This document shows, piece by piece, positions 4,632-16,476 of a stretch of DNA of 27,312 bases. The DNA is from a virus, in IMG/VR virus record IMGVR_UViG_3300032116_001097, positions 1-27,312 of that record; one strand, given 5' to 3'. Within the stretch, counting starts at the first letter, position 1, and every line of letters starts with the position of its first letter. The notes below the pieces were generated by a model. That model ran no database searches. It was given only the letters and a program-made list of their open reading frames with translations, and was not told where the DNA came from. The translations under genes were made by a program, and so were the position numbers.

Positions 4632-4973
4632 TTATTTATATCCTGCTTGGATGAGTAGTTGAGTGTACATTTCAAATGTTAATGTGGCGTACCACTGTCC
4701 AACATCTGATTTGCCTTTCCTCTTATGAACTACTACACCTGTGTCTGCTTTAGCATTCACAGTTTCTATTAGCATTTCTTCTACCCATCCAGCAAGGTCC
4801 ATCTTGGCTCTGTTTTTTATTTCAAAACAAACACCATTAACTCCAGCGATATCGCCTTTGTCGTTTCTGTCCCCAGCAAGGCGACGTTCAGCATACTTCC
4901 AGCCTTGGGTCTGTAAGTATTTAACAACATCTAGTTCTGCTTTAGAACCTTTACGCTTGCTTGGGGTTGTCAT
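4632..4973 (-). CDS. Holliday-junction-resolvase-like PD-(D/E)XK nuclease
   Basis: The 113-residue protein matches small archaeal-Hjc-like/VRR-type phage nucleases. It shows KGSKAELDVVKYL with E13, ERRLAGDRNDKGDIAG with D41, and VCFEIKNR with E51-x-K53, the full E/D/E-x-K metal-binding set. It probably cleaves branched DNA made during recombination-dependent replication, before packaging. It overlaps the SSB gene by the stop-start ATGA and is followed directly by the primase zinc-finger gene. A general nicking role cannot be excluded. Confidence 0.8.
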   Translation of the reverse strand: MTTPSKRKGSKAELDVVKYLQTQGWKYAERRLAGDRNDKGDIAGVNGVCFEIKNRAKMDLAGWVEEMLIETVNAKADTGVVVHKRKGKSDVGQWYATLTFEMYTQLLIQAGYK

Positions 4974-5305
4974 TAGTATCTCTTAACTGCTAGACCAATA
5001 GTGTCTGTTGCAATTTCGTATACTGTTCTTTTCTGACCTTCATTGTTTTCATATGAACGTTGTTTAAGTTCACCAGTAATAATAACTGAGTCACCTTTTT
5101 TAAATGACTTAGCATTCTCTGCTGCCTTACCCCAAATACTTCCGTCCAAGTATGTGGTGTTGGCGTCAACCCATTCACCTGTTGCTTCATCTTTCTTTCT
5201 TTGATTAGCAGCAATTCTGTAATTCATTACAGTATCATTGTTGACTTGTTTAACTTGTACGTCTTCTGTTAGACGTCCGTTTACTACTATAAATGGTAAT
5301 GCCAT
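4973..5305 (-). CDS. ssb: Single-stranded DNA-binding protein
   Basis: The 110-residue protein has the bacterial SSB OB-fold order: FIVVNGRLTEDVQVK, MNYRIAANQRK, TTYLDGSIWGKAAENAKSFKKGD, VIITGELKQRSYENNEGQKRTVYEI. It coats ssDNA at the fork. It ends at AVKRY with no C-terminal acidic DDDIPF-like tip, so the usual docking site for host SSB partners is absent, a known feature of some phage SSBs. The ATG follows GCGGAGATAAGATA. It lies between the helicase-like ATPase and the resolvase. Confidence 0.9.
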   Translation of the reverse strand: MALPFIVVNGRLTEDVQVKQVNNDTVMNYRIAANQRKKDEATGEWVDANTTYLDGSIWGKAAENAKSFKKGDSVIITGELKQRSYENNEGQKRTVYEIATDTIGLAVKRY

Positions 5306-5325
5306 TATCTTATCTCCGCTTTTCT

Positions 5326-6120
5326 TTAGTCGTTTGTGTGTACATCTTTTAACTGCATGGTTGATGGGTCAAATGACAACATTACAAATGAGCCACCTGT
5401 TGCATCAGCCTTGCCGTACCTGTTCTTTACAGGTGCAACACACAGATATGTACTGTCACCAATAATCTCTTGTCCAATTGTAAGAATCAATGCAGGTATC
5501 TGATTGACCATACCTTGGACTGCTGACCTTGGTTGACATGGTGTGCCTATGAATCCTTCTTTTGTGTGATGCAAAACAAGGATGCAGGCGTTTGTATCTC
5601 TAGCAAGGTACTTCAATTCTTTCATTGCTGAACGCATGCCAGAGAACTCTTCGTGTCCATCCATTGCAACATCCATCAAGTTGTCAACAACTATTAGTTC
5701 AGGTGGTTGACCCCATTTGGTTTCAAACGCCATCACTAACTCGTCAATGTCATTCAATGTTGGTGTTGCATCAAATCCCCAGTGTAAGTTTTCAAACTGT
5801 TTCATAACTTGGTCTACTCTTTGGTCATTGCTTTTAATCATTTGTTCTGCATGATTCTGAGTAACACCTGTTGCCATAGATAACAGTCTCATACCCATTG
5901 TATGAGCATTAGTATCAGCAGATATGTATAAAGTTGGTACTTTAGTTTGTACTGCTAACGCTAATGCGATACTGGATTTACCTGCACCTGGGGTTCCAGC
6001 AATCAGATTTAATTCTGCTCGTCGCAAAATAATATCTGCTTGTTGGAAGGAACGGAAATGCTGAGGGAGTGGTTCTCCCCCAACATCTTTACCGTTTATT
6101 GCACGAAGTAATGTACGCAT
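5326..6120 (-). CDS. RecA/DnaB-like ATPase, probable replicative helicase or recombinase
   Basis: The 264-residue protein is a RecA-fold ATPase. It has Walker A GTPGAGKSS (42-50), a strand TLYISADTNAHTMGMRL, Walker B LIVVDN (142-147) and LVLHHTKEGF (181-190), which resembles the DnaB/RadA sensor region. It lacks the N-terminal helical domain of full-length DnaB and has no zinc finger, so it is a minimal core of the kind common in actinophages and T7-like systems. It would use ATP to move along or load on DNA. It shares its first base with the upstream gene's stop region (TAATG), fitting a replisome operon. Confidence 0.8.
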   Translation of the reverse strand: MRTLLRAINGKDVGGEPLPQHFRSFQQADIILRRAELNLIAGTPGAGKSSIALALAVQTKVPTLYISADTNAHTMGMRLLSMATGVTQNHAEQMIKSNDQRVDQVMKQFENLHWGFDATPTLNDIDELVMAFETKWGQPPELIVVDNLMDVAMDGHEEFSGMRSAMKELKYLARDTNACILVLHHTKEGFIGTPCQPRSAVQGMVNQIPALILTIGQEIIGDSTYLCVAPVKNRYGKADATGGSFVMLSFDPSTMQLKDVHTND

Positions 6121-6575
6121 TACTTCGCTAACTTATCAGGTACGAATGCTTCCCATTCTGGTGTACCTTTTCTAAGTGAGATACTCTTACACTTATCCAA
6201 TGCACCTTTAGGTGCAGGACACATATAAGATTTGTATATTTCACCTGCTTGGAATTTAGATACTCCTTGCATTGCTGTCATACGACCATGCAAACAAGTC
6301 TTAAATGGACCTGTTGATGTTTCACTTATGACAGTTCCACCCAACGCTGCAGCAACATTTGCTACTGCATGTTGATTTTGAAACACAGGTTGTGGTGCAC
6401 TTGGTGCTTTACCAATACCTGCTGCTTCAGCAAATGCTTCTAAAGTTCCGACGAAGGTTTCAGAAGTAACTGCTGCTGTAATTAATGTTTCAACTTCCTC
6501 TGTACTATCACCACGGAATAGTGGAATAGTTCCATTAGGTAGTTTGAAACTTACCTGTATTTTAGATTCGGACAT
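6120..6575 (-). CDS. Phage replication-module zinc protein (HGRM-type)
   Basis: Residues 1-60 form a small alpha/beta region (KIQVSFKLPNGTIPLFRGDS). A Pro/Ala/Gln linker follows. The C-terminal half holds a Cys/His cluster: CLHGRMTAMQG (93-103), a Tyr/Lys segment, YMCPAPKGALDKCKSI (116-131). The C-x-HG-x-M ... CP-x-PKG-x-x-x-x-C arrangement recurs in proteins next to helicase and Cas4-like genes of actinobacteriophages and should bind one zinc. The molecular function is unknown to me. An ssDNA-binding or recombination accessory role is suggested by context only. Confidence 0.65.
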   Translation of the reverse strand: MSESKIQVSFKLPNGTIPLFRGDSTEEVETLITAAVTSETFVGTLEAFAEAAGIGKAPSAPQPVFQNQHAVANVAAALGGTVISETSTGPFKTCLHGRMTAMQGVSKFQAGEIYKSYMCPAPKGALDKCKSISLRKGTPEWEAFVPDKLAK

Positions 6576-7201
6576 TATCCTAGTCCTTCCTTTTTCTCAT
6601 ACCAATCGCAACTGTTTTTATATCCGCATAGATTACAATGACTAAAGTTTGGCATGAATATTTTATTCTTCCTCGCTCTGTCAAAGTCACCTACTAGTTT
6701 AGTTAACCTCTCTACTGTGTAAAAGTCAAGGCTAACTGGTGGAGTCACATCCTTCTTGCGTGCCATCCAATAAGCACCAAGTTGAGGTCTTACTCCATGT
6801 AGTACTTCTATGCCAACTGCATAGAATCCTAGTTGTAAAGTACTGGTCGGTGTCCTTGAACCAGTCTTCACATCAACAACAATTAACTCACCTGTTGGTG
6901 TGACCATAACCCTATCAAGTGTCATCTTAACTTTGACACCATCTAGTTCTATGTTCATAGTTAATTCAATTGCTGGCTCACCACTTGGCAATGTCCATAT
7001 AGCCCATTGCTCACGTTCTCTCCAGTCAATCCAGTTCTTAAACATTTCAATACCATTCTGGTACCACCATGCTTTATCTTCTGGTCGACGTGGGTTTGCC
7101 GACCTAAATGGTTGGGCAAACCCATCGTCTCCTAATCTTTGACGGAACTCTACTTCAGTATTATCCCAAGCGGAACGCCAATAACTTTCTATCTCATTCA
7201 T
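6575..7201 (-). CDS. Cas4/RecB-like Fe-S nuclease, C-terminal part
   Basis: This frame carries the catalytic half of a PD-(D/E)XK exonuclease: GELIVVDVKTG (D-x-K metal site), LQLGFYAVG (the RecB Q-x-x-x-Y motif), and a C-terminal HCNLCGYKNSC cluster with three Cys that would ligate a 4Fe-4S cluster as in Cas4/AddB. The ATG (MNEIESYW) overlaps the stop of the N-terminal fragment (ATGA), so coupled re-initiation is possible. A GTG 18 bases upstream is an alternative. The fourth Cys and the GTAVH motif lie in the other frame at 7198-7450, so this product alone is unlikely to be active. It would resect DNA ends in phage recombination or host DNA breakdown. Confidence 0.8.
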   Translation of the reverse strand: MNEIESYWRSAWDNTEVEFRQRLGDDGFAQPFRSANPRRPEDKAWWYQNGIEMFKNWIDWREREQWAIWTLPSGEPAIELTMNIELDGVKVKMTLDRVMVTPTGELIVVDVKTGSRTPTSTLQLGFYAVGIEVLHGVRPQLGAYWMARKKDVTPPVSLDFYTVERLTKLVGDFDRARKNKIFMPNFSHCNLCGYKNSCDWYEKKEGLG

Positions 7202-7450
7202 TTGTTGTTGTCTTTCCACTTGTCTAAGTCCCAGATTTCTGTGGCTCTATGAACAGCAGTGCCACCATATAACCACCATGCTGGGGTTTCTTTTACTAGT
7301 TTAATTCTGGATAAGTAGTACATCCAGCCACAACTTAACCAATCCATGAGGCTGGAATAACTAACATGTTCAGGGACCTTTTCGTCCCCTATATTCACCA
7401 TTTGGTGGTGCAAGCGGAGAGAAAGGAGGAAGACCCCGCTTGCGTGTCAT
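7198..7450 (-). CDS. Cas4/RecB-like nuclease, N-terminal part, needing a +1 shift
   Basis: ATG at 7450 follows the GP88 stop directly (TAAATG) and opens a 26-codon frame (MTRKRGLPPFSPLAPPNG...) that ends CCC TGA at 7375-7370. One base on, the +1 frame reads EHVSYSSLMDWLSCGWMYYL, PAWWLYGGTAVHRATE and ends at TGA 7200-7198. Those are the N-terminal motifs of the Cas4/RecB nuclease family: the Y-S-x-L helix, the first Fe-S Cys (SCGWMYY) and the G-G-T-A-V-H motif. A product through the shift would have 83 residues. Without a shift, translation of the conserved part would need TTG 7413 or a nearby codon, and none has a credible SD. A single-base indel in the assembly is the main alternative. Confidence 0.7.
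7370..7375 (-). promoter_or_regulatory. Possible +1 programmed frameshift site, CCC-TGA
   Basis: CCC can re-pair as CCT one base on, placing GAA in the A site and joining the start frame to the conserved nuclease frame. A slow stop codon after CCC is the configuration reported for +1 shifting in Listeria phage PSA, and it is analogous to CTT-TGA in RF2. Purine-rich AGGGGA and AAAAGG lie just upstream in the mRNA and could act as Shine-Dalgarno-like stimulators. An 8-bp inverted repeat (GCAAGCGG / CCGCTTGC, 7410-7417 and 7436-7443) precedes them. Confidence 0.4.
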
Positions 7451-8212
7451 TTACTTCTTGCTGATTGCAAACCTTATGTTTGCTTTGTTTTCTGTACATA
7501 GCCCACAAGTGTAGCAGGCTCCTCCGTCTTTAGATATTAAAGGAATCTGGCGTGTTTGCTCAGGGCAAGACGCACCAGGTTTACCTGTTATATCTATCAA
7601 CGCATCCTTTGCTTCATCAAAAGTGTCAGACAAATAGGCTAACTTAATCTGATGCTGTTGCCATAGTTGTCTTGCTTGCTCTTCGTTGTCCTTGTCAGCA
7701 GAGAAATATAAACTAAGATTAGGAATCTTGTTTAACATTTCTGCTGCACTAGGTACCCTTGTGTATACCCAGAACTGTACCTCTGGATTATTTATTATCA
7801 CATTCTTCCAGGCAATAGTGTATGCATAGGAAAAGAAATCACCATCCCAATGTATACGAAAATATTTAGCAGCATTGTACTTGTTGCATTCCCAAATGAA
7901 ATCATCAATCATAAACTGAATCATTGATGTTAGTTCTTGTATGCTTTTATTTTGTACAGCATCCCAATTGGCAAGCAATAGTTCTCTGGTGCTTTTAAAT
8001 ACTTTCTCTAACTTACCTGCATAACATATTTTCTGACAGACTGATGTCGCATTCGGACAAGAAAAAGATTTGCCAGATGGGAGACCAAAAGTATTTGCTA
8101 TTAATGGTCTCTTACCATCTGGCGTGGATAGTGTTGCAGTTTTTCTATCGTTGTTGCGTCTCAGTCTGGGTAGACTAGAACTCAACCTCAATACTTTCTT
8201 CTGAGTATTCAT
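7451..8212 (-). CDS. GP88-family phage protein
   Basis: The conserved part begins at LSSSLPRLRRNNDRK and shows the Gene-product-88 pattern: NTFGLPSGKSFSCPNATSVCQKICYAGKL with three Cys, KYFRIHWDGDFFSYAYTIAW, a VQFWVYTRV strand, YFSADKD, and a C-terminal ACYTCGLCTENKANIRFAI Cys cluster. The Cys set may hold a metal or Fe-S centre. The family is common in actinophages and has no established activity that I know of. I chose ATG 8212 to limit overlap with the upstream gene. A GTG at 8248 gives 12 more residues, and TTG codons at about 8194-8200 are also possible. It ends immediately before the split nuclease. Confidence 0.7.
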   Translation of the reverse strand: MNTQKKVLRLSSSLPRLRRNNDRKTATLSTPDGKRPLIANTFGLPSGKSFSCPNATSVCQKICYAGKLEKVFKSTRELLLANWDAVQNKSIQELTSMIQFMIDDFIWECNKYNAAKYFRIHWDGDFFSYAYTIAWKNVIINNPEVQFWVYTRVPSAAEMLNKIPNLSLYFSADKDNEEQARQLWQQHQIKLAYLSDTFDEAKDALIDITGKPGASCPEQTRQIPLISKDGGACYTCGLCTENKANIRFAISKK

Positions 8213-8741
8213 CATCAGCATCAGAATCAATTGAGTATTCAAGACCACCGACAGCGTTCTTGACTTTATCTTCTGCTTCTTCTACTGAGTCTGCTTTAAC
8301 AGTGAATGTGAAAGCAATAGTCACACGACCTTCGAACTCTTGTTGCAATAGGTCAGCATCTATTTCACCAAGCAACTCGTTGGCTTCATCACGATGAATA
8401 GTTACTTCTTCTTCACCATCACTAAACTGTTCAGCAAAAAAGTTATGAACTGCTACTTGTATTTTACTGATATCACCTAGTCTTTTATCTAACCGTTCTG
8501 CTTGTTCTTTTATTGTTGTTTCATACTGATTTATCTTTTGTTGTAAATCATTTAACGGTCCATCAAATGTAACCGTTGCTCTTACTACTTCTTCTTCTGA
8601 CATTTGTATATCTCCTTTTCTTAGAGCGAGTGTGCCCTTACCTCTGCAGGTTGGGCACACGACGCTTATATCTTTTACTTGCCAATTGATAGTGATGTAG
8701 CCTAAGCCTTTGCAAAAGATACACCACATTTCGTTGTTCAT
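8175..8741 (-). CDS. Zinc-finger/acidic beta protein with a strong internal start
   Basis: The long form starts at an ATG coupled to the DUF932 stop (ATGA). It begins with a DnaJ-like Cys motif, CIFCKGLGYI (7-16) and CPTCRGKGTL (29-38), i.e. paired C-x-x-C-x-G-x-G. At residue 47 there is a second in-frame ATG (8603) preceded by AAAAGGAGA at ideal spacing, one of the best SDs in the operon. The short form (142 residues) would start MSEEEVVRATVTF and lack the zinc motif. The remainder has a coiled-coil stretch (LQQKINQYETTIKEQAERLD), a beta-rich TIAFTFTVKADS region and a very acidic end. Both forms may be made. Family not recognised. Confidence 0.7.
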   Translation of the reverse strand: MNNEMWCIFCKGLGYITINWQVKDISVVCPTCRGKGTLALRKGDIQMSEEEVVRATVTFDGPLNDLQQKINQYETTIKEQAERLDKRLGDISKIQVAVHNFFAEQFSDGEEEVTIHRDEANELLGEIDADLLQQEFEGRVTIAFTFTVKADSVEEAEDKVKNAVGGLEYSIDSDADDEYSEESIEVEF

Positions 8742-9751
8742 TGCAACAACAAATCCAATGCTCTGTCTTTCAACACTTCACCTTCTGCTAACACCACACG
8801 TTCAGCACGACGAGTATCACTACCACGTACTGCTGAATAGTAGTCAGCATATTCAGTAACAGAGTTGAACAAACGCCAAGCATTATTGTCTAGCATCTGT
8901 TGACCTGGAGAATTGTGATACAAGTTTTTAATTGTATCCTTCTTGTTATCCAGCATTGTAATAACTTTCAACTCATTCTTTTCTAATGGTCGCTTACCCA
9001 TAGCACCAGCAATATCTGCTGGGATAGGAAACAAATGAGATAAGAAGTTATCAATGTCATGCGAATGCACAACAGTGTTAACTAACTTGTCTGCTTGTTC
9101 TTGTAAGAAACCACCATACTCAAATGATAACTTCATAACATCACGTGCTTGAGCAATAGACTTATTACTGTTAGCAGTATGTCTGATGGTGTGTTTGTAC
9201 TGTGATGCACGACGTGCCATACGCCAAGTGTTTTGACATACCACACGTACTGCAGTTAGTGAAACATTCATACTGAATGAACCATCATGTGATGTGGTAG
9301 CAAAGATATACATATCTGATTTATCGTTGCCATCAACAAGGATTCCATTAGGCATACGCATAGTAATAAATACTTTGCGACCACCATCAATGGAACCAGC
9401 AGTTTCATATGATGAACCACTATCAACTAACGCATCAAGAAAGTTAAACACTTCCTTGTTTTGAATAGGTGTGTATCTGGTACCTACTACACCTAATGCG
9501 TCACGCTCACCAAGCATTGGATGTTTACGGATGACTGCGAACTTGTCCTCAACAGGTACAACTTCAACACCATCTGCACTCATCACACTTGAATACAAGG
9601 GATGTAGTTCTACTTCCCAATCAAGCATTGCTTTCTTGATAGCAGACTCGGCAGTTAGTTCTTCTTCAACTACTTGTCCTAGTCCATGCCATCCTGGTTT
9701 ACGGTAAGCAACGAATGCTGTCTCACCGTTTATCTGTTCTAGATTATGCAC
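8738..9751 (-). CDS. DUF932 phage/plasmid-like protein
   Basis: The 337-residue protein follows the DUF932 (phage/plasmid-like protein TIGR03299) pattern: KPGWHGLGQVV near the N-terminus, VIRKHPMLGERDALGVVGTRYTP, VFNFLDALVDSG, ETAGSIDGGRKVFITMRMP, and NVSLTAVRVVCQNT. The family is widespread on mobile elements and has no proven biochemistry. In phages it is expressed early and sits beside recombination genes, as here. The GTG start is well supported by GAGGAGGAATAA. It is the first long gene after the small-gene cluster and probably marks the start of the replication module proper. Confidence 0.85.
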   Translation of the reverse strand: MHNLEQINGETAFVAYRKPGWHGLGQVVEEELTAESAIKKAMLDWEVELHPLYSSVMSADGVEVVPVEDKFAVIRKHPMLGERDALGVVGTRYTPIQNKEVFNFLDALVDSGSSYETAGSIDGGRKVFITMRMPNGILVDGNDKSDMYIFATTSHDGSFSMNVSLTAVRVVCQNTWRMARRASQYKHTIRHTANSNKSIAQARDVMKLSFEYGGFLQEQADKLVNTVVHSHDIDNFLSHLFPIPADIAGAMGKRPLEKNELKVITMLDNKKDTIKNLYHNSPGQQMLDNNAWRLFNSVTEYADYYSAVRGSDTRRAERVVLAEGEVLKDRALDLLLQ

Positions 9752-9844
9752 TTATTCCTCCTCTATTTCTTTTAGTATTTGCCATAGCACTGGCTCTAGT
9801 TCTAGTGCTATGGCATCTAACTTTGCTTGTAGTTCAGCACCCAT
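9752..9844 (-). CDS. Hypothetical 30-aa peptide
   Basis: The ATG overlaps the upstream stop (TAATG). The peptide, beginning MGAELQAKLDAIAL and ending acidic (ILKEIEEE), is one amphipathic helix. The SD of the DUF932 gene forms its last codons (GAG GAG GAA TAA), so it may serve mainly to carry ribosomes to that start. A 10-bp hairpin lies inside it. Confidence 0.45.
   Translation of the reverse strand: MGAELQAKLDAIALELEPVLWQILKEIEEE
9781..9814 (-). repeat. 10-bp inverted repeat ahead of the DUF932 ribosome binding site
   Basis: GCCATAGCAC pairs with GTGCTATGGC across 14 bases, about 22 bases upstream of the GAGGAGGAA SD. It lies inside a 30-codon frame. It could stabilise the mRNA 5' end or modulate initiation. 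Confidence 0.55.
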
Positions 9845-10296
9845 TACAGATACTTTGCTACGCTTGCATAAGTTGCTGTCGAAATAACTTCTTCATCAGA
9901 CATCTCAAGCATACGAATAGCATTGCTCATGTCAGCAACAATATCTTCATAGTCATGGCTGACATAGTTCCTGCCGTAACCACGACCACCTTTGTAAGGA
10001 GGTGTTGGTTCGACTGGTTCTTTTGGCAACTTATCGTTGTCAACTTTTACTGTTATCTCAAACACAGTAACAGTGTTATCAGATTGCCATCTACTTTTAA
10101 CCACATCAGTAACTAGGTCAAGATTTTTAAGAGCAATCTTCTTAACTGCTTCTTGATAATCTTTCCAGTTATCTTCGTGTGTTTTAACTGCTGCTTCGTA
10201 AAGTGCTTGATTGCTATGCACTTCACTTAACTTATCCTTTAAAGCAGTCAAGAGTTTTGTTCTATATATCTTGATATTTATTCCTTTACTTGCCAT
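9844..10296 (-). CDS. Hypothetical 150-aa helical protein
   Basis: The start is set by AGAAGGAGGAAGT before ATG. Residues 1-70 are charged and helical (LLTALKDKLSEVHSNQALYEAAVKT), suggesting a coiled coil. Then come beta-like TVTVFEITVKVDND, a Pro/Gly-rich PVEPTPPYKGGRGYGR loop, and a C-terminal helix with MSNAIRMLEMSDEEV. The layout resembles small phage proteins annotated only as hypothetical. No function can be assigned. It follows a 186-bp gap full of inverted repeats that probably contains its own transcription or translation control. Confidence 0.65.
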   Translation of the reverse strand: MASKGINIKIYRTKLLTALKDKLSEVHSNQALYEAAVKTHEDNWKDYQEAVKKIALKNLDLVTDVVKSRWQSDNTVTVFEITVKVDNDKLPKEPVEPTPPYKGGRGYGRNYVSHDYEDIVADMSNAIRMLEMSDEEVISTATYASVAKYL

Positions 10297-11954: not shown

Positions 11955-12217
11955 CTGGCAGCATCCATTTCTGCTTGACCAATCTCACGCCACTCTTCTT
12001 GTTTAATCTGGGCAATCTCATCCATGCGTGCATTAATGTTATGCAACGCACGAACTAGTTGTAGTCCAGCCAATCCAAGACATGCATCAATATCATTTGG
12101 ACCATAATCAGCATCCAAATCATCATTCCAAACAGGTGTCGCATCCATAATCTCAGACATTGTCTGAATGTTATTGCGAATCCTACTTAACAACAACCAT
12201 TCTTTATCTAAACTCAC
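11951..12217 (-). CDS. Hypothetical 88-aa helical protein
   Basis: The start is taken as GTG 12217 because AAAGGAGG lies six bases upstream; the ATG at 12241 would place that SD inside the gene. The product begins MSLDKEWLLLSRIRNNI and is helical with an acidic middle (WNDDLDADYGPNDIDACLG). LGLAGLQLVRALHNINARMDEI could pack as a four-helix unit. It directly follows regulatory module copy 2, so it may be an early-expressed protein. Confidence 0.6.
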   Translation of the reverse strand: MSLDKEWLLLSRIRNNIQTMSEIMDATPVWNDDLDADYGPNDIDACLGLAGLQLVRALHNINARMDEIAQIKQEEWREIGQAEMDAAR

Positions 12218-12237
12218 TGCATTCCTCCTTTGTATAG

Positions 12238-12289
12238 GCAAGCCTTGCTATCACAGTGTGTAGCAAGGCTTGCTATGACCATTGCTAGT
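12238..12289 (-). promoter_or_regulatory. Regulatory module copy 2: ACTAGCAATG box plus 13-bp perfect stem
   Basis: On the minus strand the box ACTAGCAATGGTCAT (from 12289) includes the TAG stop of the upstream gene. GCAAGCCTTGCTA, a 10-base loop and TAGCAAGGCTTGC follow, then AAAGGAGG seven to eight bases on. The box and the AAGCCYTGC part of the stem match copy 1 at 10318-10367. Confidence 0.6.
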
Positions 12290-12653
12290 TGCAATAGTCA
12301 CACTCTTTAAGATTCTTGGACACATACAAATGACAACTTGGACATAGCCTTAGATTCTTCACATCATCAAGGCTATCCAAGTCGTCTGACATACCAAGAA
12401 ACTCTGGACTGTCCTCCAGTCTGTAACCTGCATAGTATTTATCTGATGCAAGAACACGACTATCATGACTTCTTGTTTCAACAAACTGTTTCTCAATACA
12501 CACCCAACGCATGAGGAATGTGTCATACATCCACTTGCTGTTGTCTTCCACGCTGGTTGCGATGACCTCTTCAAGGTCAGTCTCAACCTCATGCATGGAT
12601 TGGCTATCCTCATAATCTAACTGAGCCATAGCAATACCACTTTTATTACTCAT
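12285..12653 (-). CDS. Hypothetical 122-aa protein with C-terminal zinc ribbon
   Basis: Residues 1-45 are acidic and Met/Ser-rich, then WMYDTFLMRWVCIEKQFVE looks like a short beta/helix core. The C-terminus has CPSCHLYVSKNLKECDYCN, two C-x-x-C pairs making a compact zinc ribbon that ends the protein. Start set by AAAAGGAG and the ATGA overlap with the upstream gene. The combination resembles zinc-ribbon adaptors, but no partner is evident. Confidence 0.6.
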   Translation of the reverse strand: MSNKSGIAMAQLDYEDSQSMHEVETDLEEVIATSVEDNSKWMYDTFLMRWVCIEKQFVETRSHDSRVLASDKYYAGYRLEDSPEFLGMSDDLDSLDDVKNLRLCPSCHLYVSKNLKECDYCN

Positions 12654-12799
12654 TTGTTTTCTCCTTTTCTTTTACATGCATACAACCACCCTTGAATCCA
12701 GTAGTTGTTGTCCAACATCTTCCATGGGTGTAGGATTCCACACCTATCACACATGAAAGACTCATCGTTGTCAGTACAAATAATTTCTTGTACCCACAT
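12650..12799 (-). CDS. 49-aa Cys-containing protein
   Basis: The product (MWVQEIICTDNDESFMCDRCGI...) has one C-x-x-C plus two separate Cys and a C-terminal KRKGEN. Tyr/Trp-rich NNYWIQGWLYACKRK follows the metal motif. ATGA links it to the next gene, whose SD (AAAAGGAG) is formed by its last codons. Weak GGTGG SD of its own. Confidence 0.5.
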   Translation of the reverse strand: MWVQEIICTDNDESFMCDRCGILHPWKMLDNNYWIQGWLYACKRKGENK

Positions 12800-12800
12800 A

Positions 12801-12890
12801 TCAATACCACCTACTAACTACATCTGCTAACACCATTAAACCTACAAATAACATACTCCAAGCAAACCATTTCAAATTACTTTTCATCAT
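12801..12890 (-). CDS. 29-aa single-helix membrane peptide
   Basis: Starts at ATGATG after GGAG, within the upstream stop. MMKSNLKWFAW, a hydrophobic helix (SMLFVGLMVLADVV) and SRWY. Basic N-terminus predicts N-in topology. The second of two such mini membrane peptides in the cluster; they do not share sequence. Confidence 0.5.
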   Translation of the reverse strand: MMKSNLKWFAWSMLFVGLMVLADVVSRWY

Positions 12891-13003
12891 TCAATCTCCA
12901 AACAATCAGCACATACCACTACACCATCTGGATATATATGTCCACCCTCTTCATCAAAATCCACATCAACATTACATACACTGCACTTGTTATACTTCTT
13001 CAC
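12887..13003 (-). CDS. 38-aa zinc ribbon
   Basis: GTG start overlapping the upstream stop (GTGA). KCSVCNVDVDFDEEGGH and VVVCADCLEIE give two C-x-x-C pairs flanking an acidic loop with a His, a complete zinc-ribbon fold in miniature. Function unknown; part of the zinc-ribbon series. Confidence 0.55.
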   Translation of the reverse strand: MKKYNKCSVCNVDVDFDEEGGHIYPDGVVVCADCLEIE

Positions 13004-13206
13004 TTATAATCTCCAATCTCAATAAACCTTTCATCAAACTCATCAGTACAACCATTACTACAAACAAACTCAGGTCTATTACTAATCAAACAAAAAACTA
13101 CCCTCAAATTAGTAACAAACCAAGGACCACTACAAATACAACAATAAGCATCAAACTTATCGTTGTCCATACATTTATCCCAATATTCCTCTTTACTAAC
13201 TAACAT
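13000..13206 (-). CDS. 68-aa zinc-binding protein
   Basis: ATG after AAAAAGGAGATTGT, a strong SD. Cys ligands lie in YCCICSGPWFV and FVCSNGCTDEF, separated by a hydrophobic strand (NLRVVFCLI). The C-S-x-G-C element resembles a rubredoxin-like knuckle. Acidic C-terminus. It is the second gene of the minus operon and follows a 9-bp hairpin. Confidence 0.6.
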   Translation of the reverse strand: MLVSKEEYWDKCMDNDKFDAYCCICSGPWFVTNLRVVFCLISNRPEFVCSNGCTDEFDERFIEIGDYK

Positions 13207-13233
13207 ACAATCTCCTTTTTGTAGGACATCAGT

Positions 13234-13263
13234 AACTGCTACCGACAGACGCCAGTAGCAGTT
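13234..13263 (-). repeat. 9-bp inverted repeat ahead of a strong ribosome binding site
   Basis: AACTGCTAC pairs with GTAGCAGTT across 12 bases, lying between the 118-aa and 68-aa genes, about 16 bases before AAAAAGGAG. No T-run follows. Sequence differs from the module at 10318 and 12238, but the position is the same. Confidence 0.5.
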
Positions 13264-13277
13264 CTGAATCTGTTCTG

Positions 13278-13634
13278 TTAAGCAACAACTTCTTGAACAA
13301 CAAACTGGTCATACCATTTCTTGTTGTTCAATCGTTTGCTGTGGTATCCCTTAATGGTAAAGAGATGGTTGGCAGGGCGTACGGCTCTGTTTCTGTTAGC
13401 GTCATCTTCAGACTCAAACAAAACATTGCCACCTGTAGCGTCCTCGTTGGTGTCTTTGGCAACTCCGAAAACATTGCCACCCCAACATACGAAGAAGCCT
13501 GACCATTGGAACTTGTTATCGTCGTCACGGACAATCATCAGTCCGCGAGTTCCAATAACTTCGCCGTCCTTGGAGCGTTTGATACTCTCAAGGTTTTTTA
13601 CTTCAACACGCTCATATGCAATTGTTTGCATCAT
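13278..13634 (-). CDS. Hypothetical 118-aa protein, first gene of the minus operon
   Basis: Starts at ATGATG after GAAAGGAAACG. The protein has alternating short strands: IAYERVEVKNLESI, IGTRGLMIVRDDDN, FQWSGFFVCWGGNVFGVA, NHLFTIKGYHS, WYDQFVVQEVV. This suggests a small beta-barrel. The codon pattern is richer in G and C than in the neighbours downstream, and the whole gene lies in the left arm of the giant palindrome, with a decayed inverted copy at 13870-14198. This points to separate acquisition. As the most promoter-proximal gene it should be abundant early. Function unknown. Confidence 0.65.
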   Translation of the reverse strand: MMQTIAYERVEVKNLESIKRSKDGEVIGTRGLMIVRDDDNKFQWSGFFVCWGGNVFGVAKDTNEDATGGNVLFESEDDANRNRAVRPANHLFTIKGYHSKRLNNKKWYDQFVVQEVVA

Positions 13635-13869
13635 CGTTTCCTTTCTAATAGAGCGAGGTTTTCACATCTTGTCGAGGCGTGCCATGACGCAACGCCAATC
13701 GCGTGCGGTGTGGGCTGCGTGATTTACAGCATGCCTCGCTTTGGCTCGGCGATGCTTTACCAGCCGAGACAGAGGTGTGGTGTAAATCATGCAGTTCAAC
13801 GCACCGATTGCCGACGAAGGAGGTACGCGTTGCAATTGGCCACGCACTCGACGTGAAACCTCGCTCTAT

Positions 13870-14198
13870 GAAAGGAACGACGAAGCAAACGCTTAATTGC
13901 ATTATGAGCGAGTTGATATGGTAAAAAACCTTGTTCCAGTATCAACGCCCAAAGGACGCGAAGTTGGAACCGTGGACATGATTGCCCATGACACGATAAC
14001 GTTCCAGTCTTTGGGCAGGCTTCAAGTGTTGGGTGGCATGTTGAGTTGCCTGACCCAACAGGACGCCAAGGTGGACGTTTTGCGAGTCTGAACGATACGC
14101 AACAGAAACGTTCAGAGCAACGCCCAGCCAACCACCTTTCCATTTGGGTACCCAGCAAACGAGAACAACAGAAAGGTATCCAGTTTGATTGTTAAGAA
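13870..14198 (+). pseudogene. Decayed inverted copy of the 118-aa gene
   Basis: On the plus strand the region reads as a degraded relative of the gene at 13278-13634. From TTG 13897 the frame gives HYERVDMVKNL (against AYERVEVKNL), then GREVGTVDMIAHD, FQSLGRLQVLGG, aligned with GEVIGTRGLMIVRD and FQWSGFFVCWGG. Gaps in this first half are in multiples of three, as if it was once translated. After about 14070 a net frame change produces a TGA at 14089-14091, and the rest matches only as nucleotides, with several deletions. No good SD stands at TTG 13897 and a TAA precedes it, so expression is unlikely. Confidence 0.7.
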
Positions 14199-14246
14199 AG
14201 TTACCAACTGCAACAGAACAGTCAGAACTGGTTGGCGTCCTGTTAG

Positions 14247-14346
14247 TGCAGACTGAGGTCCCAAACAGGAGTGGTCAGATGTGACACTGGTACGTCGCAG
14301 GCAGTCTGCAACGGACCCCAGAGTGTTTAAATCTGACTCCACTCTG
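14247..14346. repeat. Overlapping inverted repeats at the edge of the palindrome
   Basis: TGCAGACTG (14247-14255) pairs with CAGTCTGCA (14302-14310), CAGAGTG (14319-14325) pairs with CACTCTG (14340-14346), and GAGTGG-TCAGAT near 14269 matches ATCTGACTCCACTC near 14331-14344 with a two-base bulge. No gene is seen. The region may fold as RNA or hold protein-binding sites. Confidence 0.45.
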
Positions 14347-14473
14347 TATATGAAACACCCACTATATTTTTTTGTTACGGTGTGATAGTCTGTTTTTGTT
14401 GTTTTTTGGTTTGTTTTATAACGATTTGGTTAAGAGTTGTCCGCTTTTGTATTTTGGACGGATTAGTATATAT
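14347..14473. other. AT-rich stretch upstream of the late operon
   Basis: No gene. Contains T-runs (14366-14373 and 14395-14409), TTGTCC at 14437-14442 with GTCC/GGAC symmetry around it, and TATATATA at 14468-14475. This is where a late promoter would be expected, but I cannot match a convincing -35/-10 pair at normal spacing. If the phage sigma-like protein is used, the promoter may be non-canonical. Confidence 0.35.
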
Positions 14474-14566
14474 ATGAGGGGATAAATACTATCCCCTCAT
14501 CTGTAACTGTAAATAGATATTTAAAGCCTTTAAGGGCTTTAAATATACTGTTCTGTACTGTTACAG
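14474..14566 (+). promoter_or_regulatory. Paired palindromes in the terminase leader
   Basis: ATGAGGGGATA / TATCCCCTCAT (11 bp, 5-base loop, 14474-14500) is followed by TATTTAAAGCC / GGCTTTAAATA (11 bp, 6-base loop, 14518-14545). The second is framed by CTGTAAC (14501-14507) / GTTACAG (14560-14566). Neither stem has a terminator T-run. They lie 36-130 bases before the terminase ATG, so they are candidates for late-operon operators or an mRNA leader structure. Confidence 0.55.
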
Positions 14567-14601
14567 AGTGTAGTATTCTAGAGTTACGGATAGGTGTAGG
14601 T

Positions 14602-16476
14602 ATGGGGTTCCAAAAGGGTAAGGAGCACCAGAATGCCACGGATTCTGTGGAGGCTAAAAGGTTAGTCCTTCAGTATGTTTCTGAGGGTGTAGGGGTTCAG
14701 CAAGCGATTGGGCTTGTGGGGCGTCAACCTGTTACCCTACGCCAATGGATGTCTCGTGACCCTGGGTTTGCTCGTAAACTTGAGGAAGCCAAGGAACTTG
14801 GGGCTTCTAAAGATTTATCTGGTGATAAGTATCAGATTGAGTTTTCTGAATTTTCTGAAAAATTTTTGAACAGCCGTATTTTCCCCCATCAACAAAATTG
14901 GGTTGATGTGTTGGAGGGACGTGAGCCTTCTTGGCTTCACCCTAGCATGGTGTATGAACCTGCTGACCCTACAAGGTTGTTGATTAACGTGCCACCTGAG
15001 CATGCTAAGTCAACTACCATTACTGTGAATTATTCAACTTATAAGATTTGTAAGGACCCTGACAATACTCGTATTATTGTTATTTCCAAAACCCTGACTA
15101 AGGCTCAGGAGTTTGTTTATTCTATTAAGCAACGTTTGACTCATCCTATGTGGGCTAAGTTGCAGGCAACCTATGCCCCTCCTGGTGGGTGGCGTGAGGA
15201 TGCTGATTCTTGGAAAGCCAACGCTATTACGTTGTCTCGTACTTCTACCGAGAAGGACCCTACGGTTCAGGCTCTTGGTATTGGTGGTCAAGTGTATGGT
15301 GCTCGTGCTAACTTGATAATTCTTGATGACTGTGTAACTGGGGCTAATGCCCATGAGTGGGCTAAACAGTTAGAGTGGATTCAGAAAGAAGTTGTTACTC
15401 GTCTTGACGACGAGGGTGTTTTGTTAATTGTTGGTACTAGGTTTGCTGCCACAGATTTGTATAGGGAGATTCGTAACCCTAAGCATTGGTCTAATGGTAA
15501 ATCTCCTTTCACTTATTTTTCTATGCCAGCAGTTTTAGAAACCTCGGAGGACCCAAAGGATTGGGTTACTTTGTGGGCTAAGACTGACCAGAAGTCAGGT
15601 ACTAAGAAAGAACCTGATGAGAATGGTTTGTATTCTAAGTGGGACGGTCCAGCCCTGTACCGTAGGCGTGGTGAAGTTACTCCTAGTACTTGGGCATTGG
15701 TTTATCAGCAACAAGATATTCAAGAAGATTCTATCTTCAAACCTTCTTGTGTGCAGGCTTCTACTAATGGTATGAGACGCACAGGTATTATTAATAATAA
15801 ACTTCCTGGGCACCCTAAAGATGGGGACTTCTACACCATCATGGGTATTGACCCTGCTATGACTGGTAAGACTGCCGCAGTTATGTTGGCTTATGACCGT
15901 AGAACACATATGCGTTATGTGTTGGATGTTTATAACATGGTTGACCCTAACCCTCAAAAGGTTCGTGCTTTGATGGAAGATTGGGTTAACAAGTATCACC
16001 CGCAGGAAATGCGTGTTGAGATTAACGCACACCAGAAAGCGTATGCGTTAGATGAAGAATTAAACCAGTGGTTAACAAATAGAGGGATTCAGTTCCGTTC
16101 TCATTTCACTGGTAAAAACAAATGGGATGTTGACTTTGGTGTAGCATCTATGGCTGCCTTGTTTGGTAGTGAACGTGATGGTAAACACCAAGATGACAAT
16201 ATGATTGAACTTCCTTCAGCAGAAGGAAATGAGCATGTTAAGGCTTTAGTAAATCAATTACTTACCTGGTCTCCAGGTGTAAAGAAATCACAAGCAACTG
16301 ACTGTGTGATGGCTTTATGGTTTTGTGAAATTAGAGTTAAAGAGTTAATCCAACAATCTGGGTTTGCTCAATCACATTCGTATAACAGGTATGCAACTAA
16401 GGCTGGTATACGTAATAGAGGAACAATTAATCTAGATGACCTTGCTGCAGCACAATATTCTGAAGCATACTTATAG
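14602..16476 (+). CDS. terL: Terminase large subunit with N-terminal HTH region
   Basis: The 624-residue motor packages phage DNA into the capsid. The ATPase domain shows a Walker-A-like VPPEHAKSTT (130-139), Walker B LIILDD (238-243) and the coupling motif VGTRF (277-281). The nuclease domain shows IMGIDPAMTG with D417, MRVEINAHQ with E473 and SQATDCVMALW with D567. Residues 15-65 (EAKRLVLQYVSEGVGVQQAI, TLRQWMSRDPGF) look like a helix-turn-helix of the kind seen in small terminases. No separate small-subunit gene is visible, so DNA recognition may be fused here. GGATAGGTGTAGGT precedes the ATG. First gene of the late operon. Confidence 0.9.
   Translation: MGFQKGKEHQNATDSVEAKRLVLQYVSEGVGVQQAIGLVGRQPVTLRQWMSRDPGFARKLEEAKELGASKDLSGDKYQIEFSEFSEKFLNSRIFPHQQNWVDVLEGREPSWLHPSMVYEPADPTRLLINVPPEHAKSTTITVNYSTYKICKDPDNTRIIVISKTLTKAQEFVYSIKQRLTHPMWAKLQATYAPPGGWREDADSWKANAITLSRTSTEKDPTVQALGIGGQVYGARANLIILDDCVTGANAHEWAKQLEWIQKEVVTRLDDEGVLLIVGTRFAATDLYREIRNPKHWSNGKSPFTYFSMPAVLETSEDPKDWVTLWAKTDQKSGTKKEPDENGLYSKWDGPALYRRRGEVTPSTWALVYQQQDIQEDSIFKPSCVQASTNGMRRTGIINNKLPGHPKDGDFYTIMGIDPAMTGKTAAVMLAYDRRTHMRYVLDVYNMVDPNPQKVRALMEDWVNKYHPQEMRVEINAHQKAYALDEELNQWLTNRGIQFRSHFTGKNKWDVDFGVASMAALFGSERDGKHQDDNMIELPSAEGNEHVKALVNQLLTWSPGVKKSQATDCVMALWFCEIRVKELIQQSGFAQSHSYNRYATKAGIRNRGTINLDDLAAAQYSEAYL

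Follow-up and report, generated by a model that had tools for sequence, protein, structure and literature searches.

A conserved kilobase palindrome in which a non-coding arm co-evolves with the first early gene of a phage

Introduction

Why should a phage keep a palindrome of about 1 kb in which one arm is a gene and the other a non-coding mirror of that gene? Palindromes of this size should not last in the DNA of bacteria and phages, and a dead copy of a gene should drift away from it. The non-coding mirror described here has tracked its gene through a large divergence. The window, by which we mean the whole stretch of DNA that was analysed, is an entire virus record of 27,312 bases. A preliminary description had proposed the palindrome and had suggested, among other readings, a replication origin, a hairpin-forming locus or the scar of an inverted duplication; it had named a chimeric join as the artefact to test for. 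Here, the structure, its relatives and the evolution of its arms were characterized.

Results

Geometry of the palindrome

Local alignment of the reverse complement of 13100-13757 with 13758-14420 spanned 582 columns, of which 417 were identical and 116 held gaps. It scored 206, and none of 200 dinucleotide shuffles scored above 21.5. A self-BLAST of the window returned the same structure (13212-14271, 72% identity, E 1.7e-94). The palindrome is real, and its coordinates and 12-base loop are as first described (Table 1). The arms had been put at 25–30% divergence. Between the reverse complement of 13211-13757 and 13758-14275, identity is about 72% when gaps are counted and 89% in ungapped columns; the difference between the arms consists mostly of indels rather than substitutions. 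Relative to the left arm (L), the right arm (R) has about 46 small deletions, 17 insertions and 49 substitutions, and the longest exact runs between arms in three genomes are 14, 19 and 17 bases. Runs as short as these would fit the earlier suggestion that divergence of the arms may relieve the instability of so long a palindrome.

Table 1. Features of the palindrome locus, in coordinates of the window.
Feature	Position	Strand	Basis or remark
Left arm (L): leader, gene and 3' hairpin	13211..13757	-	Alignment with R; present in ten contigs
Intact 118-codon gene, first of the leftward early block	13278..13634	-	ORF; orthologues at 46–100% identity
Shine-Dalgarno-like AGAAAGGAAACG before the start codon	13636..13647	-	Faces complementary R bases
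Central loop GATGCTTTACCA, 12 bases, flanks CTCGGC / GCCGAG	13751..13762		Axis ~13756.5
Right arm (R): non-coding mirror of L, small indels scattered throughout	13758..14275	+	Arm alignments; best match is its own L
Outer block at outer end of R, non-coding, nearly invariant	14243..14345		Alignment of relatives
Predicted leftward promoter CGGACA-17 nt-TATAAA	14415..14443	-	30/43 loci; start would be near 14408

Read on the minus strand, L gives the gene's sense RNA and R its antisense. The distinction first drawn between a live left arm and a degraded right arm was borne out, as R carries many indels and holds no ORF comparable to the left gene. The Shine-Dalgarno region sits in matched segments of the arms in the alignments of the window and of relatives L016, L012, L013 and L014. 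In L012–L014 a shorter apical loop replaces the 12-base loop, and the flanking stem GATTTAYAGC / GTGGTRTAAATC is retained. The outer block is kept even in relatives whose two arms have both diverged. Its motif CCCAGNGT...TTAA recurs in more distant relatives; when the block was used as a probe for further lineages, none new was found.

The palindrome lies, as had been noted, where two sets of genes part: leftward early and replication genes, including those for a DnaB-like helicase and a primase-like protein, and rightward genes for the terminase large subunit and portal. The 118-codon gene belongs to an orphan family confined to this locus in related phages. Its product had no relative in Pfam, PHROG, PDB, phage records or bacterial genomes, and profile comparison found it unrelated to the first gene of L031-type phages. 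An AlphaFold model of the protein, mostly strands, was of low confidence (pLDDT 49.7), too poor for a fold search.

Two further observations concern the surrounding genes. A second short imperfect palindrome (14500-14567; 68 bases, about 81% identity) lies just ahead of the terminase start and is kept in near relatives. The mRNA of the early leftward genes (4632-10296) is predicted to fold far more stably than codon-shuffled sequence (z to -7.4), which is not so for the late genes. We do not treat this as special, since an unrelated Streptomyces phage gave a mean of -3.2 for its late genes when tested in this way, which makes the baseline uncertain.

The palindrome is conserved among related phages

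Besides the window, ten viral contigs from nine metagenomes carry the palindrome junction or a diverged equivalent. Seven have the same junction at about 88–100% identity. In six of these the distance from gene start to terminase start is 967–971 bases, and the seventh, L006, aligns throughout. In the remaining three (L012, L013 and L014) the terminase is 97–98% identical to that of the window and the left-gene protein only about 50%; their palindromes, of 364–543 bp, stand at the same place. The palindrome is thus phylogenetically conserved, with lengths from about 364 to 1060 bp across lineages, although a long palindrome is absent from many relatives. R of L012 and L014 is a series of blocks identical to the gene, mostly 8–11 bases long, between which mostly 4–7 bases are missing.

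The indel-rich divergence of one arm resembles long-read error, and a template-complement chimera had been named as a possible artefact. The recurrence of the junction in seven more contigs, and of its equivalent in three, shows that it is not confined to one read set or assembly. A chimera was therefore rejected, and the probability that sequencing or assembly created the structure is negligible.

The arms co-evolve

In three lineages whose left-gene proteins share about 50% identity, each R best matches its own L. The R–L scores were 208 (window), 140.5 (L013) and 77.5 (L012), as compared with 26–62.5 for cross pairs between these lineages. In a strict test of covariation, homologous columns were taken from L–L and R–R alignments, and the changes in L that were matched in R were counted. 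There were 10 matched changes out of 14 for window/L016 (null mean 0.56, maximum 2) and 12 out of 25 for window/L006 (null mean 1.0, maximum 4). The L016/L006 pair gave a modest 4 of 14 (null mean 0.33, maximum 3), and the 2 of 7 in L012/L014 did not exceed the null maximum. A looser count on each genome's own L–R map was set aside in favour of the strict one, as free gap placement inflates its null; despite that high null, it rose above the null maximum for both pairs that include L006.

R changed less often at columns where it matched L than at mismatched columns (12% versus 38%, 13% versus 36%, 9% versus 21% and 5% versus 26%). Changes of L in one genome that break a match were fewer than expected from random placement, most clearly in the coding part of L016/L006 (10 versus 19.4). 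Small gaps were shared beside the matched changes in three pairs (40, 37 and 46), and the matched sites were spread over 7–14 separate inter-gap blocks. This scatter, together with the persistence of the gaps, argues against long conversion tracts.

In these alignments the arms co-evolve, even though R is non-coding and rich in small indels, and the palindrome is therefore not a passive scar. An inverted duplication, as first suggested, accounts for how the structure arose but leaves the joint evolution of its arms unexplained. The original observation is confirmed and is stronger than when first described, given the conservation of the palindrome and the covariation between its arms.

A leftward promoter-like element and predicted folding

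The promoter-like element to the right of the palindrome occurs at the same place in the loci that have it, with a spacer of 17 in 29 of them and 16 in one, and the sequence between its boxes varies. No matching rightward sigma-70-like element was found in the stretch that holds it. We infer that the early leftward mRNA starts here. If the element works, R would make up the antisense portion of a roughly 770-base leader before the first gene. The start region of the gene lies in matched arm segments; whether both arms lie in one transcript depends on the predicted promoter. In relatives without the long palindrome, several hundred non-coding, hairpin-rich bases separate the promoter-like element from the first leftward gene. 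Near the centre, the minus strand of L013 carries TGC-TATAAAT; the window equivalent is only TGTAAA and is doubtful.

When both strands of the 1.1-kb stretch were folded, each gave a predicted single-strand hairpin with a minimum free energy of about -615 kcal/mol, and of the readings first offered a hairpin-forming locus fits best. Counts of G-U versus A-C pairs, minus:plus, were 13:10, 13:9, 12:5, 1:7, 5:2 and 4:3 and did not single out a strand; nor did the conserved outer block or the leaders of relatives. Indels in R create local stems, namely TCTGAACG/CGTTCAGA in the window, TCTGAACAGT/ACTGTCAGA in L006 and GGCAAGTTAT/ATAACTTGCC in L016. Folding of R alone gave z values of -0.5 to -7.4, both strands taken together.

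Several other elements were seen upstream of terminase. A block at 14438-14473 (TGTCCGCTTTTGTATTTTGGACGGATTAGTATATA) is kept in most relatives; part of it coincides with the -35 of the predicted leftward promoter, and it may hold late-gene signals as well. A separate palindrome of about 130–155 bp lies further upstream in L038, at about -1266 to -1120 from terminase, and also occurs in L032, L040, L047 and L054; in L038 it has TATAAT boxes facing both directions. L031, L058, L027 and L028 share 235 nt that comprise a bulged hairpin, which is conserved, a region resembling a pseudoknot and a ACCCAGGGTTATTAA end, for which Rfam gave no match. L038-type phages have a similar but distinct domain with nine covarying pairs.

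Discussion

We suggest that the first early gene was duplicated in inverted orientation long ago and that its non-coding copy now lies in the 5' leader of the leftward early transcript. Starting from the element at 14415-14443, the RNA would run through the antisense copy (R, minus strand) and the loop into the gene, and could fold into a bulge-interrupted hairpin of about 1 kb covering the first gene from end to end, its Shine-Dalgarno region included. RNA rather than DNA would then be the working molecule. The hairpin would reduce or time the output of the first protein when the long early message is translated. Genes further downstream would escape this silencing, as would a shorter message starting nearer the gene, for instance one from near the centre, where L013 has the TGC-TATAAAT site. 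The explanation as a whole, in which a duplicated antisense leader folds over the first gene and holds back its translation, is drawn from sequence comparison and prediction, and we put it at somewhat less than an even chance.

One alternative requires no function and ascribes the upkeep of the palindrome to mutation. Polymerase template switching would copy short stretches of the live gene into the dead copy, and deletions would accumulate because a perfect palindrome is unstable. Homogenization of arms by template switching, at times of no more than a few bases, has been documented, with early descriptions from phages (PMC8604942), and short-tract copying would yield much of the same pattern without function. 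The faster evolution of R than of L, the numerous gaps and short exact runs, and the near-complete matching of L changes in R close to the centre are all consistent with such copying. Copying should, however, also repair the small gaps, whereas the window and L016 have 40 of about 57 gap sites in common beside matched changes. Nor does one-way copying from L to R predict the depletion of match-breaking changes in L, and three lineages retain the palindrome at the same place beside the same gene. We regard upkeep by mutation as rather unlikely and, on the pattern of substitutions and gaps, lean towards selection for pairing, rather than copying, as what has kept the arms alike.

The local hairpins of R could instead mark it as an independent RNA. 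R and the conserved outer block would then be a structured non-coding RNA, read rightward, gene-derived and mRNA-like, that could titrate whatever binds the mRNA. The stems built by indels in the window, L006 and L016 are consistent with this proposal, as is the finding that R of L013, L012 and L014 exceeds shuffled sequence in stability chiefly on the plus strand, where L038-type leaders also fold better and with fewer A-C cells. It is made improbable by the leftward orientation of the conserved promoter-like element, by the failure to find a rightward promoter in the same stretch and by the lower folding energy of R in the window clade on the minus strand. A DNA-level element, that is, a cruciform or hairpin that helps to initiate replication or acts in regulation where the operons diverge, would suit the position between divergent gene blocks and the conservation of the central stem. 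The great variation in arm length across lineages, and the absence of a long palindrome from many relatives, speak against such an element, which we consider very improbable.

If the leader hairpin is real, the message would be self-silencing, its leader a running copy of its own coding sequence. The fuller claim, that an early phage mRNA carries a 5' leader evolved as an antisense mirror of the entire first gene, with compensatory evolution across lineages diverged by about 50% in that gene and self-silencing as the outcome, is put forward tentatively and falls well below an even chance. Either selection acts on pairing along a whole gene, which would be a new control of phage messages, or short-tract copying sustains long concerted evolution. 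The existing lineages allow selection and copying to be tested against each other.

By sequence comparison, no known RNA or protein family matches the locus, and literature searches for imperfect palindromes of phages associated with non-coding RNA or dsRNA gave nothing relevant. T4-type early transcripts conceal a ribosome-binding site in a hairpin, as in the lysozyme gene e. There, as in the logic proposed here, a long early message sequesters the start site and a shorter message exposes it; the T4 hairpins are tens of bases long, whereas the pairing predicted here spans the leader and the whole gene. The large RNAs GOLLD, ROOL and OLE usually, if not universally, lie near tRNA genes. Rfam gave no match to them (cmscan, window 12000-15500, E up to 5; ten sources at gathering score), and ARAGORN found no tRNA in the window. 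The locus resembles GOLLD and ROOL (PMC12286853) in that it is a large phage sequence, folds strongly and is conserved at one end but variable elsewhere, and differs from them in having neither an Rfam match nor tRNAs nearby.

Mitochondrial genes of Nematomorpha hold long inverted repeats, perfect and up to 284 bp, with both arms coding (PMC6649704). These also overlap coding sequence and persist while it evolves, whereas the present repeat is in a phage, about 1 kb long and imperfect, with one arm non-coding. Template switching is known to homogenize the two arms of an inverted repeat, in some cases in stretches of a few bases (PMC8604942). Repeats homogenized in this way (PMC8604942; PMC3820800) share with our locus the similarity of the arms in short stretches, but they are short, whereas here a kilobase repeat has kept dozens of gaps while its substitutions are matched.
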